Assembly: GCA_029257065.1 (NCBI GenBank)
Contig: JARIDA010000031.1
Span: 1 to 33,477, forward strand
DNA: 33,477 nt
Direction: 5' to 3'
Source of the DNA: Tissierellaceae bacterium
GTDB lineage: Bacteria > Bacillota > Clostridia > Tissierellales > Tissierellaceae
Shown here: piece after piece, positions 454 through 33,477 of the stretch
Layout of the letters: each line of letters opens with the position of its first letter
Position numbering within the stretch: the first letter of the stretch is position 1
Made by a program: the position numbers and the translations under genes
Notes under the pieces: generated by a model
What the model was told of the DNA's origin: nothing
What the model saw: the letters and a program-made list of their open reading frames with translations, nothing else
Databases searched by the model: none

Positions 454-1074
454 ATGTTTGAGAATTTAAGTCAGAAGCAAATAGAAATACTATTATATAT
501 AAAGTCGGAAATACAAAGACAGGGTTACCCCCCTGCAGTTAGGGAGATCTGTAAAGGAGTTGGATTAAAGTCAACTTCAACGGTACATGGTCACTTGGAA
601 AAATTAGAATCAAAAGGATATATAAGAAAAGATCCTACCAAGCCACGTGCTATAGAGATATTAGATCAAAACAACGAGGAGGACATACTAAGCGTTAAGA
701 AGACTGTTGATGTACCTATAATGGGAAAAGTGACCGCAGGGGCTCCTGTTTTAGCGGTTGAAAACATCGAGGATACAATGCCCATACCATATGATCTGGT
801 AAAAGATAAAGAAGTTTTTATCTTAAACGTAAGTGGGGATAGTATGATAAATGCTGGAATCTTAGATGGAGATAAAGTGCTTGTTAAAAAACAAGATATT
901 GCTGAGAATGGTGATATAGTCGTTGCTCTTTTAGGCGAAGAAGCAACTTTAAAAAGATTCTTTAGAGAAAAGGATCATGTTAGATTGCAGCCAGAAAATG
1001 ATTTTATGGACCCTATAATAACAACTAGTATTTCCGTCATAGGAAAAGTTATTGGTGTTTATAGAATAATTTAA
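454..1074 (+). CDS. lexA: LexA repressor, SOS regulator with S24 autopeptidase
   Basis: LexA represses SOS genes and cleaves itself when RecA filaments form on damaged DNA. The 206 residues are the usual Firmicute length. The N-terminal winged helix-turn-helix covers about residues 1-70 ([40 protein letters not shown]). The self-cleavage bond is Ala95-Gly96 in [10 protein letters not shown]. The catalytic dyad is Ser130 in SGDSMINAG and Lys167 in EEATLKRFF. The start has a good AGAGGTG ribosome binding site. The gene stands alone, divergent from the yneA-like gene, with three LexA boxes between them and a strong hairpin terminator after it. All catalytic residues are intact, so it should be functional. 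Confidence 0.97.
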
Positions 1075-1086
1075 TAATAACATATA

Positions 1087-1132
1087 AAAAATGCGCATCA
1101 AGAAAATAAAAGTTTTCTTGATGCGCATTTTT
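1087..1132 (+). terminator. lexA intrinsic terminator
   Basis: A perfect 20-bp stem (AAAAATGCGCATCAAGAAAA and its complement) with a 6-base loop ends in a T run. The A-rich left arm means it could also work for leftward transcripts. Confidence 0.9.
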
Positions 1133-1149
1133 AAATCACTCTAATTAAA

Positions 1150-1192
1150 CCTCATTTAGTTTACATATTATAATTACGTCAACTAAATGAGG
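1150..1192. repeat. 12-bp inverted repeat
   Basis: CCTCATTTAGTT and AACTAAATGAGG are perfect complements around a 19-base spacer. There is no T run, so a terminator is unlikely. It may be an operator, a recombination site or an RNA hairpin. Confidence 0.6.
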
Positions 1193-1334
1193 TGACTCAT
1201 AAAAATTCATTAACTTTACTTGAATTAATCGACCCCCTCTGTCAAACAGCTAAAAGCAGCTAAATTAGAACTTTAGTTCCATACCTATACATTTCCATTA
1301 GATGGTCCATAATATTACATCGGAAAGGGTGTTT

Positions 1335-1392
1335 TAGAGGCGGATATTCTCCACCTCTACGAGTTTCATACAATGGTAATTATATGAAACTC
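1335..1392. repeat. Two adjacent hairpins
   Basis: TAGAGG-c-GGA pairs with TCC-a-CCTCTA (1335-1359). Directly after it, GAGTTTCATA pairs with TATGAAACTC (1361-1392). Neither is followed by a T run. Confidence 0.6.
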
Positions 1393-1588
1393 AATTAAAT
1401 AAGGCACATATTTAAGAACGTCTATAAATACAGCTTTGAAGAGGTTTTTAAATATGCTGCATGTATTATGGTTAAATTCAATAGCTAGAGATTCCCTAAA
1501 CGAGCCTATAGGTAAACTAAGTTTCCTTAAACGAGAGGAAGTTTTAGAATAAGTTTTAAGTCTTTTTACTTGTATAAATTAACTGATT

Positions 1589-2152
1589 CTATAAATAAAA
1601 TGATTCCATTGATTCTTCTACTGCTTCATCTGTCATTCCAATATATTTCATGGTTACGCTTTGACTGCTATGATTAAAAATATACATAAGTTTTGCTATA
1701 TCTTTTGTTTGTTTATAAAAATGGTAACCAAAAGATTTTCTAAGTGAGTGAGTTCCAAAATTATTAATACCAAGATCTTCTGCAACTATCTTCAATCTAT
1801 TATAAGCCTGCCTAGTTGTAATATTTCTTAAATTACCATCTTCATCTTTTTCTCTACTAGGGAATAAAGGATCATTTAATTCCAATCTATTGTTTTCTAT
1901 ATATCTATCTATCTCTACTCCTATATGTCTTATGGGAAATCTTTTAAATTTCTTGGTTTTCTGTTCTCTTAGTTCTATAAAATCTTTCCTGTATATATCC
2001 TTTACTTTAAAGGATAGGATATCTCCTATTCTAAGTCCTGTATTAAATCCCATTAAAGATATTATGTAATCTCTCTCACTCCTATATCTTATCTCTTCTT
2101 TATACTTATCTATTAAATCCATATCTTTTATCGGTTCAACTAATCTCATCAT
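1589..2152 (-). CDS. Small tyrosine recombinase (catalytic domain only)
   Basis: The protein has 187 residues, whereas typical phage/transposon integrases exceed 300 and have an N-terminal core-binding domain, which is absent here. All catalytic positions can be placed: Arg41 in NTGLRIGDIL, a lysine within QKTKKFKRFP (about 65-70), His135 and Arg138 in THSLRKSFG, His161 in FNHSSQSV and the nucleophile Tyr170 in MKYIGM. It should therefore be an active strand-exchange enzyme, perhaps one that inverts or excises local DNA. The start at 2152 has an AGGAG ribosome binding site and its own promoter. Neighbours are a hairpin-rich non-coding stretch downstream and two unknown small genes upstream on the other strand. 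The set interrupts the usual lexA to miaA region and is likely an acquired island. Its substrate is unknown. Confidence 0.85.
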   Translation of the reverse strand: MMRLVEPIKDMDLIDKYKEEIRYRSERDYIISLMGFNTGLRIGDILSFKVKDIYRKDFIELREQKTKKFKRFPIRHIGVEIDRYIENNRLELNDPLFPSREKDEDGNLRNITTRQAYNRLKIVAEDLGINNFGTHSLRKSFGYHFYKQTKDIAKLMYIFNHSSQSVTMKYIGMTDEAVEESMESFYL

Positions 2153-2203: not shown

Positions 2204-2218
2204 CAAGCAAAATGAAGT

Positions 2219-2239
2219 TTACATAATAATTTTATGTAA
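2219..2239. promoter_or_regulatory. Palindrome between divergent promoters, possible operator
   Basis: TTACATAA-TAATT-TTATGTAA is a perfect 8-bp inverted repeat. It sits between the recombinase -35 (2198-2203) and the rightward -35 (2242-2247), the position of a shared operator. The binding protein is unknown. Confidence 0.5.
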
Positions 2240-2241
2240 GT

Positions 2242-2270
2242 TTGACTTTTTTTTAGTAAAGGAGTATATT
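2242..2270 (+). promoter_or_regulatory. Promoter of the two small unknown genes
   Basis: TTGACT (2242-2247) and TATATT (2265-2270) are separated by 17 bases, followed by an AGGAGGAG ribosome binding site and the ATG at 2304. Confidence 0.65.
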
Positions 2271-2303: not shown

Positions 2304-2621
2304 ATGTTTACAAAAGACGAAAAGAATAATATATTTCTAAAACTATCAATAGATAAAAATATCCTAGATGAAAAAATAAAAGAAGATAAATTAATAATTT
2401 TTAATAATCCTAAGGATGCTTTATATAAAGCCTATAATATAAATATTAATAATATTAAAGGCGATAAGAATTCTAAACAATTAATTCTTAATTTATTAAA
2501 ATTAGACAAAGAACAATGTATAGGATTAGATGGTGAGCTAACATTAGCAGATGCATTTATAGCTTTTCACCACAAAACATGTAGAGCTTCAGACAATAAG
2601 TTTGTAGTAATCTTAGATTAA
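2304..2621 (+). CDS. Small protein of unknown function (105 aa), related to the next gene
   Basis: I do not recognise a family. The protein is soluble-looking, lysine and asparagine rich, with no signal peptide or membrane segment. A strong AGGAGGAG ribosome binding site and a promoter with ideal spacing show that it is a real gene. Its C-terminus (ADAFIAFHHKTCRASDNKFV) aligns without gaps to the C-terminus of the following protein, sharing the pattern DA-[FY]-I-x6-C-x2-S-x-N-[KR]-[FY]. An upstream L-x-I-F motif and a leucine-rich helix also correspond. The two thus look like diverged copies of one family. They form a bicistron (20-base gap) divergent from the recombinase. The conserved Asp, Cys and Ser could be structural or catalytic; no function is inferred. 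Confidence 0.8.
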   Translation: MFTKDEKNNIFLKLSIDKNILDEKIKEDKLIIFNNPKDALYKAYNININNIKGDKNSKQLILNLLKLDKEQCIGLDGELTLADAFIAFHHKTCRASDNKFVVILD

Positions 2622-2641
2622 GAACAGGAGAGTAATTAAAA

Positions 2642-2962
2642 ATGATTATAAATAAATTTCTTTCAATAGAAGAGATAGAAATGATTGAGAATTATTATGG
2701 TGAAAATGTTAATGAATTGTCAAATGCTTTCAACAATAGAAAACTCCAAATTTTTGAGTCTAAAGAGCATTTAGTAACCTGGTTAGCTACTTCAAGTGAA
2801 TCCAATGCATCTAATTTATTGAATTCCCTATTAGATTTGAAAATAAAAAAAATAAGAGAACCATATATTGAAAATTCTAGAGATGCATATATACATCTAG
2901 ATCCTAATATATGTGTAGTTAGTAATAACAGATATATACATTATAAAAATAAAGAAGATTGA
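2642..2962 (+). CDS. Small protein of unknown function (106 aa), related to the previous gene
   Basis: No family is recognised. A good AGGAG ribosome binding site precedes the ATG, and the gene follows its relative by 20 bases, so they are co-transcribed. The C-terminal segment SRDAYIHLDPNICVVSNNRY carries the same DA-[FY]-I-x6-C-x2-S-x-N-[KR]-[FY] pattern as the neighbour, and LQIFESKEHL matches LIIFNNPKDA. About seven residues fewer lie between the two blocks. No membrane segment or signal peptide is visible. The stop codon lies inside the left arm of the terminator hairpin, so the last codons and the terminator share sequence. Role unknown; the neighbouring recombinase suggests a mobile or defence-type accessory island, which is only inference. 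Confidence 0.8.
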   Translation: MIINKFLSIEEIEMIENYYGENVNELSNAFNNRKLQIFESKEHLVTWLATSSESNASNLLNSLLDLKIKKIREPYIENSRDAYIHLDPNICVVSNNRYIHYKNKED

Positions 2963-2988
2963 TTATAAAATCAATCTTCTTTATTTTT
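2945..2988. terminator. Bidirectional terminator between the small-gene pair and the ynbB-like gene
   Basis: A 19-bp perfect stem (AAAAATAAAGAAGATTGAT and complement) ends in T runs on both strands. It serves the rightward bicistron and the leftward miaB-mutS operon, whose last stop is at 2991. Confidence 0.9.
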
Positions 2989-2990
2989 AT

Positions 2991-4280
2991 TTATATTCTA
3001 ATTAAGTTATCATCTATTAAATTACTTAAAGATTTATATATTCCTAATTTACAATGGGAATATGTAAGTCCACCTTGATAATATGCATAGTAGGGATCTC
3101 TCATAGGTGCATCTGCACTTAATTCTATTGATGATCCCTCTATAAAACTTCCTGATGCCATTATTACTTCGTTTTCATAACCTGGCATTTCTGATGCAAT
3201 TGGAGTAAAATGAGCATCTACTGCTGCTGCATCTTGAATACCTTTACAAAATGCTTTTACCTTTTTAGGATCCTTAAACTCGATTGCTTGAATTATATCA
3301 CTTCTCTCATCATCGACTTTAGGTATTACTTTGTAACCTAAAGAACTAAATACTTGACCTACTAATAAAGCTCCTTTAACAGCCTCCGATGTTATTAGTG
3401 GAGCTAGGAAAAGCCCTTGTAATATATTTCTAGTTTTCCCAAATGTTAATCCTGAATCTTTACCTAATCCTGGTGCAGTTAATTTATTAGCAATTCTTTC
3501 TATTAGTTTTTCTTTCCCAGCTATATATCCACCAGAAATAGCTATTCCTCCACCAGGATTCTTTATAAGAGAACCTGCTATAATATCAGCACCTACTTCT
3601 GTAGGTTCTTTATAGTCTAAAAATTCACCATAGCAATTATCTACCATTATATATATATTTTCATTAATAGTCTTGATTTTTTTAATTGCTTCATCTATTT
3701 CCTCTATAGTAAAAGCATTTCTATCACTATAGCCTGTTGATCTTTGGATCATTATTAATTTAGTATTTGCCTTTATATATTTTTCAATACTACTTAAATC
3801 TATTTTCCCATTAATTAAATCAATTTCATCATACTTGACACCCATTTCTATTAAGTTACCAGCTTCACTACCCTCTATACCTATTACCTGTTGTAATGTG
3901 TCATAAGGTGTACCAGTAATTGATAGTAAATGATCTCCAGGTAAAAGAATACCATTTAAAGCTAAACTCAAAGCATGAGTCCCTGACGCAATAGTAGGTC
4001 TAACTATTGCATCCTCTGAATTGAAAACTAACGAATATATTCTTTCTGTTTTTTCTCTACCCATGTCATTATATCCATAGCCAGTTGTCCAATTAAAATC
4101 TGTAGCTCCTAGTTTGACCTCATGCATTGCTCTTATTACTTTATATTGATTAAATTCTTTAATTTCATCTATTTTTTTAAATTTATTTATTATATAATTC
4201 TCTTCCTTTTTTACAAAATCTATAACTTCTTTAGATATATCAAAGTTATCCATTAGAAATTTCTCTGTGTGATTGATCAT
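2991..4280 (-). CDS. ynbB: PLP-dependent methionine gamma-lyase family protein (YnbB/aluminium-resistance family)
   Basis: The protein is a fold-type I PLP enzyme of the family named after aluminium resistance protein or methionine gamma-lyase-like. Its 429 residues match the family length. Visible motifs are RPTIASGTHAL (about 94-104, cofactor phosphate region), VDNCYGEF with Asp214 (pyridine nitrogen) and GSLIKNPGGG with the probable Schiff-base Lys240. The substrate is not proven for this family; sulfur amino acid cleavage is an inference from homology. The gene is the last of the operon miaB-mutS-mutL-miaA, 18 bases after miaA, where Clostridia commonly carry it. The hfq gene often found between miaA and this gene is absent. 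Confidence 0.88.
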   Translation of the reverse strand: MINHTEKFLMDNFDISKEVIDFVKKEENYIINKFKKIDEIKEFNQYKVIRAMHEVKLGATDFNWTTGYGYNDMGREKTERIYSLVFNSEDAIVRPTIASGTHALSLALNGILLPGDHLLSITGTPYDTLQQVIGIEGSEAGNLIEMGVKYDEIDLINGKIDLSSIEKYIKANTKLIMIQRSTGYSDRNAFTIEEIDEAIKKIKTINENIYIMVDNCYGEFLDYKEPTEVGADIIAGSLIKNPGGGIAISGGYIAGKEKLIERIANKLTAPGLGKDSGLTFGKTRNILQGLFLAPLITSEAVKGALLVGQVFSSLGYKVIPKVDDERSDIIQAIEFKDPKKVKAFCKGIQDAAAVDAHFTPIASEMPGYENEVIMASGSFIEGSSIELSADAPMRDPYYAYYQGGLTYSHCKLGIYKSLSNLIDDNLIRI

Positions 4281-7125: not shown

Positions 7126-9738
7126 TTAATCACCTCTTAAATCTTGAGCTTCTTTTACGATATCATTTAATCTATTTAAAGCTTCTATAGGAGATAAATC
7201 ATTAACATTTATTTTTGATAAATTATCAATATAATAATTTGTTCTAAAATCTTCTAATTTTAATTGTTTGCTTTCTACTTCATTTACTTTATCTAAATTA
7301 ATATCATTACCGTCTTCAATTGTATATAAAATTTCACTAGCCCTGTCTATTATTTTTTTGTGAACCCCTGCCAATCTAGCTACTTGTATTCCATAACTTT
7401 TATTAGTACTTCCCTCTATAACTTTTCTTAAAAAAACAATATCTTCACCTTTTTCCTCTGCAACAATAGTCAAATTATTCACTTCATTATAATTATCTTC
7501 CAATTGTGTCAACTCATGATAGTGTGTTGCAAATAAGGTCTTAGCTTTAATATCCTCTGCTATATATTCAATTAATGACCAAGCAATACTTAACCCATCA
7601 TAGGTACTAGTTCCTCTTCCAACTTCATCTAGTATTATAAGACTTCTATTTGTAGCAGATTTTACTATATTAGATACTTCATTCATCTCTACCATAAAAG
7701 TACTCTCTCCCTGTGATAGATTGTCTGCAGCACCTATCCTAGTAAAAATTCTATCAACTATTGATATATTAGCTGATGTAGCTGGTACGAATGATCCTAT
7801 ATGAGATAATAATGTTATTATAGCTACTTGTCTCATATAAGTAGATTTACCCGCCATATTAGGTCCTGTTATTATTTGGATCATATCATTTTCTAAATCT
7901 AAATAGGTATCATTTGGTATAAATAAATTATTTTCTATATTATTTTCTACAACAGGATGTCTCCCATCCTTTATATCTATTACCCCATTAATATTCATTT
8001 TAGGTTTAGAAAAATTTGATTTAAAAGCAGTTTCAGCAAAAGAATTCAAAACATCTATTTTAGATATTTCTCTACTAACTCTTTGTATTCTATCTACTTC
8101 TTTTTTTATAGTTTCTCTAATTTCAATGAAAATTTTATATTCGAATTCAAGTAGGTCATCTTCAGCAGATAAGATTTGATTTTCCATTTCTTTTAATTCA
8201 TCAGTGTAATATCTTTCAGAATTTGTCAGGGTTTGCCTCCTGTGAAAATGATCTTGTACTTTAGGTATATTAGACTTAGTTACTTCAAAATAATATCCTA
8301 ACATTTTGTTAAATCCAATTTTCAAATTATTAATTCCAGATTTTTTTCTTTCTTTTTCCTCTAAATCACTTAGCCATTGCTTTCCTTTAAAAGCTATTTC
8401 TTTGATTTTATCTAGTTCAGAATCATAGCCTTTCTTTATAATTCCCCCTTCAGTAATTAAAATAGGAGGTTGTTCAACTATAGATTTATCTATTAAACTA
8501 TATACATCCTGTAATGAATCTATATTCTTATTTATAGCCATTAACTCTTTATTATTTGTGCCCTTCAATATGGCTTTTAATTCAGGAAGTTGTCCTATTG
8601 AATTTTTTAAAGATATTAATTCTCTAGCATTACAGTTACCAGTGGATATTTTACTAGATAAACGTTCTATATCATAAATACCTTTTAATGATTTTTTAAC
8701 ACTATCTTTAATGTCTAAATTATTTATGAAATATTCTACAATTAAATGCCTTATATTTATTTTTTCTATATTTATTAGAGGTTGTTCAAGCCACTTTCTT
8801 AATAGTCTTCCCCCCATTGAAGTAGATGTATTATCTAAAAAACCTACTAATGAACCTTTCTTATCTCTACTTATAATTGTCTGGTGTATTTCTAAATTTG
8901 TTCTAGTACTAAAGTCCATAACCATATAATTATTCGCCTCATAAAAAAATAATTCATTGATGTGATTTAATGCGTTTTTCTGTGTTTCTTCTAAATATTC
9001 TATCAGTTTATAGGTTGCCATATTTGATAGTATTCTATCTTTATTATTAAACTCATCTATAATTAAAAGATGAAAATGTTTTTCAAATTTTTTTCCCCAT
9101 TCAGATAGATCATCATCCTTCTCTTTAAAAACATTGAAATATGGATTTAAATTATTTTTTATTATATTTATTATTTTTTTATTTTTATAGAAGTTTTCAT
9201 TACAAATGATTTCAGAAGGATATATCTTACTAATTTCATTTAACGCAAAATTTAACATATCTTCTTTAGATGAGTATAAATTAGTTGTATATAATTCTCC
9301 CGTTGAATTATCTACATAGGATATACCTATCCCTATTTCATCTAAATAAATAGAAACTAAATAATTATTTGATTTTTCATCAAGTATAGTTTGATCTGTT
9401 ATAGTTCCAGGGGTTACAACTCTTACTACTTCACGCCTTACTATTCCCTTTGCTTCAGATGGGTCTTCAACCTGTTCACATATAGCTACTTTATAGCCTC
9501 TTTCAACAAGCTTTGCTACATAGCTATCTGATACATGGTGTGGTATTCCACACATTGCAGCTTTTTCCTTTAAACCAACACCTCTTTGAGTTAATGTTAT
9601 TTCAAGTTCTTTGGATGCAATTTCTGCATCTTCAAAGAACATTTCATAAAAATCTCCTAATCTAAAAAACAAGATAGAATCAGTATACTCCTTCTTAATA
9701 TCCATATATTGTTTCATCATAGGTGTTAATTCTGCCAA
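7126..9738 (-). CDS. mutS: DNA mismatch repair protein MutS
   Basis: MutS recognises mismatches and small loops. At 870 residues it has family length. The N-terminal mismatch-binding domain has the Phe-x-Glu motif in GDFYEMFFEDA (about residues 28-37). The C-terminal ABC ATPase has Walker A GPNMAGKSTY (about 625-634), a SQGESTFMVEM signature region, Walker B SLIILDEVGRGTSTYDG and the FATHYHEL switch. The start MAELTPMMKQYM is typical. It lies 28 bases after miaB and overlaps the region of the mutL start, so the repair pair is translationally linked. Nothing is missing. Confidence 0.98.
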   Translation of the reverse strand: MAELTPMMKQYMDIKKEYTDSILFFRLGDFYEMFFEDAEIASKELEITLTQRGVGLKEKAAMCGIPHHVSDSYVAKLVERGYKVAICEQVEDPSEAKGIVRREVVRVVTPGTITDQTILDEKSNNYLVSIYLDEIGIGISYVDNSTGELYTTNLYSSKEDMLNFALNEISKIYPSEIICNENFYKNKKIINIIKNNLNPYFNVFKEKDDDLSEWGKKFEKHFHLLIIDEFNNKDRILSNMATYKLIEYLEETQKNALNHINELFFYEANNYMVMDFSTRTNLEIHQTIISRDKKGSLVGFLDNTSTSMGGRLLRKWLEQPLINIEKINIRHLIVEYFINNLDIKDSVKKSLKGIYDIERLSSKISTGNCNARELISLKNSIGQLPELKAILKGTNNKELMAINKNIDSLQDVYSLIDKSIVEQPPILITEGGIIKKGYDSELDKIKEIAFKGKQWLSDLEEKERKKSGINNLKIGFNKMLGYYFEVTKSNIPKVQDHFHRRQTLTNSERYYTDELKEMENQILSAEDDLLEFEYKIFIEIRETIKKEVDRIQRVSREISKIDVLNSFAETAFKSNFSKPKMNINGVIDIKDGRHPVVENNIENNLFIPNDTYLDLENDMIQIITGPNMAGKSTYMRQVAIITLLSHIGSFVPATSANISIVDRIFTRIGAADNLSQGESTFMVEMNEVSNIVKSATNRSLIILDEVGRGTSTYDGLSIAWSLIEYIAEDIKAKTLFATHYHELTQLEDNYNEVNNLTIVAEEKGEDIVFLRKVIEGSTNKSYGIQVARLAGVHKKIIDRASEILYTIEDGNDINLDKVNEVESKQLKLEDFRTNYYIDNLSKINVNDLSPIEALNRLNDIVKEAQDLRGD

Positions 9739-32875: not shown

Positions 32876-32915
32876 AATAAATAGCTGATAGCCCTAGGGC
32901 TATCAGCTATTTATT
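32876..32915 (-). terminator. Terminator hairpin at the 3' end of OLE RNA
   Basis: A perfect 40-bp palindrome (centre GCCCTAGGGC) is followed on the minus strand by TTTTTG, then directly by the oapA ribosome binding site. It would end OLE RNA while allowing some read-through into oapA. Confidence 0.85.
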
Positions 32916-33477
32916 AAAGTGGTAATAATAAGTGTAAATCTTACGGCTTTGGTCCAGTAGGATTTCCCTAACAAAAACTATTTGTCGCCATAATAGCGGT
33001 TTCCCTTTAATTTCATTACTATCCTGTCACCACAGATAGAACTGGATTACCACTTAGGCCGCACTGTAATCCACAAATTATTTCTCTTTGAACAGTCTAG
33101 GAGTTTTCCTCAACAGCCATACTATCTCCTTAGCCTCTTTTGCAAAATAGGTTTCGGCAACAAAACCCAGAAGATTTTGGGCCCTGCTAAATCCTCTGGA
33201 TGACCTGCCATCTGCCTGATTTCACTCAAGGCAGGCTACTCTGTTACTTTGTAACCTAGTACGTAACAGGTGTATCACATCTATTTTCTAGATATGTCTC
33301 CACGAAGGTAGGGTCATCGCCCGCATGCCTTTGCAGATCGCCCCATCCCCCTTACTCCCCACATAGACCCCCGACTGGGCGTCGCAAGCCTATACAAGAA
33401 ACTTCATCGATATGCCCTTCAACGGATTTTTAGCCCCGTCTTCCAGAGTAGTTGTACTGACTAGAATACTGCACCAC
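32916..33477 (-). ncRNA. OLE RNA (ornate, large, extremophilic), 5' end beyond window
   Basis: About 560 bases without coding potential and clearly richer in G+C than the surrounding genes. Many local hairpins can be read: 33019-33039 (CTAT-c-CTGT/ACAG-ATAG), 33044-33072 (GGATTAC/GTAATCC), 33212-33234 (CTGCCT/AGGCAG) and 33241-33269 (CTGTTAC/GTAACAG). The strand follows from its position upstream of oapA-tlyA-recN and from the terminator after it. OLE RNAs are about 600 nt, co-encoded with oapA, and form a membrane-associated complex with OapA and other proteins; the RNA's biochemical task is not settled. Probably a few tens of bases at the 5' end are missing. I could not compare it with the Rfam model, so the call rests on size, structure and context. 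Confidence 0.85.

Follow-up and report, generated by a model that had tools for sequence, protein, structure and literature searches.

The question raised by this locus of an anaerobic bacterium is what two small adjacent genes are, and how they came to lie beside a recombinase gene in a gap between lexA and alu that is mostly short in the relatives. In the window (the whole stretch of 33,477 nucleotides analysed here), the earlier note had described a pair of ORFs of 105 and 106 amino acids with a common C-terminal pattern, and both were confirmed: ORF1 at 2304..2621 and ORF2, its probable sibling, at 2642..2962, both on the plus strand with 20 bp between the ORF1 stop and the ORF2 start. The in-frame codon scores are 0.49 bits/codon for ORF1 and 0.38 for ORF2, against -0.75 to 0.13 in the other frames; the neighbouring (housekeeping) genes in the window score 0.49-0.74. 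Ribosome-binding sites precede both genes (AGGAGGAG before ORF1 and AGGAG before ORF2), and a hairpin of 20 pairs (2943..2990), which overlaps the ORF2 stop, would be the terminator common to ORF2 (plus strand) and the convergent alu gene (minus strand). The codon usage, the ribosome-binding sites and the shared terminator make ORF1-ORF2 credible as an operon. A candidate sigma-A-like promoter for the two genes, TTGACT-17-TATATT with 10 of 12 matches, lies at 2242..2270 on the plus strand. Note that the number of such sigma-A-like sites is not above the expectation from shuffled DNA.

The left boundary of the locus is lexA (454..1074, plus strand; Pfam LexA_DNA_bind and Peptidase_S24), which has a match in 92 of 100 relatives. 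The right boundary is a methionine gamma-lyase-like gene (2991..4280, minus strand), which we take to be the gene named 'aluminium resistance' (alu), with a match at E<=0.001 in 95 of 100 relatives, a count that includes a few distant aminotransferase-type matches. In the relatives these genes are convergent neighbours, mostly separated by 50-150 bp with one shared hairpin, whereas the gap in the window is about 1.9 kb and each gene has its own hairpin, the terminator behind lexA being at 1087..1132 (20 pairs, loop of 6). The extra DNA contains a stretch of about 400 bp in which no ORF reaches 60 amino acids (1194..1588), a minus-strand gene for a recombinase of 187 amino acids, and ORF1-ORF2; this block of about 1.8 kb is a lineage-specific insertion relative to the relatives. 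The ORF-free segment gave no Rfam hit at the gathering score and no second long copy in its own genome, and the relatives show only short matches to it. In one relative (G019; L072 612-2474) the lexA-alu gap is likewise enlarged, to 2.4 kb, by an unrelated gene of 621 amino acids, presumably S41-protease-like, so that the gap accepts different insertions. On the other side of lexA, between it and a divergent LysM gene, two LexA-box-like sequences (GAACGTTTGTTC and GAACTCTTGTTC) at 310-375 would fit the expected lexA autoregulation. At the far end of the window, an OLE RNA (RF01071, 450 bits) occupies 32903-33477 on the minus strand and is cut by the contig end.

No published family had been recognised for the pair in the earlier note, and our searches agreed: neither protein had a match in Pfam or PADLOC, even at E-values up to 10, or a match of note in NCBIfam, and PHROGs gave only matches at E>0.08. 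Comparison with PDB sequences yielded no homologue, and that with phage and plasmid records no significant match. Neither protein had a homologue in 199 relative genomes, nor did ORF1 in 391 from the class or ORF2 in 399 from the phylum; GTDB contigs and IMG/VR, scanned by pattern in a way that detects close relatives only, likewise gave none. ORF1 and ORF2 are orphans in all the sets searched, and neither protein sequence allows a function to be read. Weak matches to phage MT835828 (E=0.4), CsvR (E=0.046), HA2 (E=0.5) and the genome G458 (E=0.008) were rejected, as each was a short part of a larger protein that seemed unrelated. A degenerate DNA version of the common C-terminal pattern matched four times in viral contigs, each time with stops in the motif frame. 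The single-sequence AlphaFold2 models were poor (pLDDT 40.5 for ORF1 and 47.3 for ORF2); Foldseek found no match for the former, and for the latter a protein from Bacillus phage Riley (80 aa, uncharacterised; E=0.006, probability 1.0, TM 0.45), which was set aside on account of the model.

The two proteins share DA[FY]I-x6-C-x2-S-x-N-[KR]-[FY], a pattern matched by 0 of 603 comparison ORFs of 85-130 amino acids. A KLxIF block is found at residues 29-33 and 34-38 in the two proteins, with an unbroken 5-residue offset from there back to the N-terminus, and the order of the blocks is colinear (KLxIF, a Leu-rich segment, then the C-terminal pattern). BLASTP of ORF1 against ORF2, as a single comparison, gave E=0.008 across 19 C-terminal amino acids, and shuffle tests ranged from p=0.006 (PAM250, local) to p=0.16 (BLOSUM62, global). 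When each ORF was scored against 603 length-matched ORFs from other loci, its partner ranked at about 1-12. The similarity of the two is therefore above chance (E=0.008 and the rank among the 603), but it is weak to marginal and falls short of proving homology. That they are ancient tandem duplicates nevertheless appears the likelier history. The alternative, that ORF1 and ORF2 are two unrelated orphan genes and that their common pattern arose by chance in AT-rich proteins, is rather unlikely and yet a serious contender: the BLOSUM62 shuffles gave p=0.08 locally as well as the global value above, MAFFT misses the KLxIF block when aligning the full-length pair, and the predicted secondary structures of the C-termini differ, with very low confidence. 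Against it stand the colinear blocks, the partner ranks and the adjacency of the two genes, which favours duplication.

The tandem, sibling-like genes were said to lie beside a recombinase, and the neighbour is indeed a tyrosine recombinase (1589..2152, minus strand). It consists of a catalytic domain only, with R..K..HxxR..H..Y readable in the translation, and matches the phage family phrog_216 with E=6.5e-52 and NCBIfam PRK09871 with E=8e-4. Many viral contigs carry copies roughly 40-45% identical to it. Its closest relative (61% identity, 186/187 aa), also a catalytic domain only, is encoded in G002 at C1:179128-179682; there the recombinase and dif-like sites are present, and the ORF pair was not found beside them. 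In another genome (G001, C18; L180), perfect 28-bp inverted repeats (8105-8132 and 8975-9002) enclose a related recombinase. This segment, which lies 85 bp from a gene for a methyl-accepting chemotaxis receptor, is likely to be an invertible switch.

In the window, the recombinase gene has on either side a 27-bp dyad of 11-5-11 design. Site A (1149..1193) has its 27-bp core, AGTTTACATAT-TATAA-TTACGTCAACT, at 1158-1184 within a longer palindrome, ACCTCATTT...AAATGAGGT; a core with an extended palindrome is also seen at Xer-adjacent sites in the relatives. Site B (2216..2242), AGTTTACATAA-TAATT-TTATGTAAGTT, lies between the recombinase gene and ORF1, has no extended palindrome, and ends on the first base of the -35 box of ORF1. 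As inverted repeats the two sites are about 20/27 identical, judged by eye, with different centres (TATAA and TAATT), and they are the only copies of the dyad in their own genome (27-bp pattern, at most 3 mismatches). In G002, six dyads surround the recombinase gene, and the better-matching ones are confined to this locus except for two stray matches. Four dyads of the same plan, spaced 45-46 bp, form an array-like series upstream of that gene (C1; L176 10381-10544).

The consensus of the dyad, [AG]GTTTACATAA-N5-TTATGTAAAC[TC], is nearly perfectly symmetric and occurs in 46 of 100 relatives with 63 copies, or about one per genome (for example at G003 C21:291053, G053 C7:56944 and G057 C1:1723823). 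Forty-six of the 63 copies are within 6 kb of lexA, compared with 0.3 expected under uniform placement, and most of these are located upstream of a recombinase gene linked to lexA, at a distance of about 0.3-1.9 kb. The encoded protein, of about 320 amino acids, scores against the XerC, XerD and XerA models. The arms often co-vary (GGTTTAC/GTAAACC, AGTTAAC/GTTAACT, AGTTGAC/GTCAACT) and the centre is free; arms that change together are expected for symmetric binding by one recombinase. Single-recombinase Xer systems are characterised by genetic linkage between the site and the recombinase gene (PMC5357621), and the dyads, at about one Xer-linked copy per genome, conform to this. The 27-bp dyad looks like a candidate for the single-recombinase dif site, the site of chromosome separation, in this order. 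Dyads are also present in the lexA-alu gap of G014 (C215:2016-2042) and of G038 (C19:23581-23607, where the dyad is the shared hairpin itself), so that the gap holds a site in other lineages too.

The explanation that we tentatively favour, at somewhat less than an even chance, is that a two-gene operon of orphan, probably duplicated proteins is accessory cargo in a lineage-specific insertion at a dif-type locus. The pair would have arrived, perhaps together with the recombinase, or been retained as cargo beside this locus, with its own candidate promoter at 2242-2270 driving transcription; its products would probably act jointly, forming a small hetero-oligomer whose function is dispensable. 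The pair is situated directly beyond site B and hence outside the A-B segment (1158-2242), so that it could be independent of the recombinase element, and with their different central bases A and B are not obviously an active recombination pair. Further points against this explanation are the marginal sibling similarity and the case of G002, where recombinase and sites occur with no ORF pair.

The interpretation in the earlier note was supported in part. A defence role, a toxin-antitoxin role and a phage origin had been suggested there for such tandem genes. Neither protein had a PADLOC match to speak for defence, and no phage homologue of either was found in PHROGs, viral contigs or phage records; a defence or toxin-antitoxin role is possible, with no positive support in our results. 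A toxin-antitoxin pair, in which one protein inhibits growth and the other neutralises it, is improbable. In its favour are the small size (about 100 amino acids), adjacency and common orientation of the two ORFs, within an insertion beside a recombinase, and the LADAFIA stretch of ORF1, which by eye is superficially like the C-terminal part of PIN nucleases; a PIN domain in ORF1 was tried and had no profile match. However, siblings of equal size are unusual for a toxin and its antitoxin, no DNA-binding domain was recognised in either protein, and the Pfam, NCBIfam and PADLOC searches described above revealed no toxin or antitoxin domain.

Equally improbable is that the recombinase controls the pair, with occupancy or rearrangement of site B switching ORF1-ORF2 in the manner of invertase-like phase variation. 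The contact of site B with the -35 box is consistent with such control, and the related recombinase of G001, with its perfect inverted repeats close to the chemotaxis-receptor gene, resembles RecV-type switches (PMC5386303). However, an invertible switch at A and B was rejected, as these sites are imperfect repeats with differing centres, and both the -35 and the -10 boxes are outside the A-B segment, so that inversion would leave the promoter in place.

Slightly less probable again is that in this genome and in G002 the phage-type recombinase has replaced the lexA-linked Xer and works the dif-like sites, with ORF1-ORF2 as its new two-protein accessory module or as cargo. With the 187-aa protein as the query, the lexA-linked Xer of the relatives was usually found, mostly at E-values of 1e-4 to 1e-8, and the second match in this genome and in G002 was only XerD-like. 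No Xer was found in G002 beyond the LysM gene, where the others carry the lexA-linked one; the contig of the present genome begins inside the LysM gene, so that the absence of this Xer is less certain here than in G002. A takeover of the dif-like sites by the small recombinase would be compatible with these data. If confirmed, it would be a natural case of a rebuilt Xer/dif system, and of a dif locus at which small accessory operons can land. Comparably improbable is that the pair serves the recombinase as a directionality factor or as an Xer-activating or anti-Xer factor, given that it is absent beside the closest recombinase in G002, shows no DNA-binding signature and is not markedly basic in composition, even though it lies directly behind a recombination site and mobile elements at dif may encode an Xer activator of their own (XafT, as cited in PMC9765430).

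Orphan small operons are numerous, and taken alone the ORF pair would be just another; where it lies is of greater importance, and the dif-like locus around it is the lead of more interest. This locus suggests that across the order a dif-like site is linked to an Xer next to lexA, and that one lineage has a minimal phage-type recombinase on those sites instead.

Several known systems resemble parts of this arrangement. Invertases of the FimB/FimE and RecV types are likewise small tyrosine recombinases, as the PRK09871 match and the G001 relative with flanking inverted repeats recall, but the sites in the window are imperfect and no invertible promoter was recognised. The dif modules (pdif) of Acinetobacter also combine small pairs of genes with adjacent Xer sites (PMC6449649); such a module is bounded on both sides, whereas the ORF pair has a site only upstream (2216-2242), with no 5-bp-centre dyad of at most 8 mismatches between 2243 and 6774. 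In the mobile elements integrated at dif (IMEX), such as LME-1 of Legionella and GGI of Neisseria, extra DNA is likewise flanked by a site with the complete extended palindrome on one side and a shorter dif-like site on the other; once LME-1 has integrated, the dif of Legionella is present as an intact copy and a modified one (PMC9765430). These elements are far larger and LME-1 uses the host Xer, whereas in the window the two sites enclose a segment (1158-2242) with a phage-type recombinase gene and leave the ORF pair outside. In XerS/difSL, XerH/difH and XerL, as at the present locus, a dif-like dyad shows genetic linkage to the gene of the recombinase (PMC5357621). The site described here differs from theirs in its 27-bp length, 5-bp centre and nearly perfect symmetry, and while XerS, XerH and XerL are Xer proteins of 320-360 amino acids, the linked recombinase in this genome and in G002 is the 187-aa type with a catalytic domain only.
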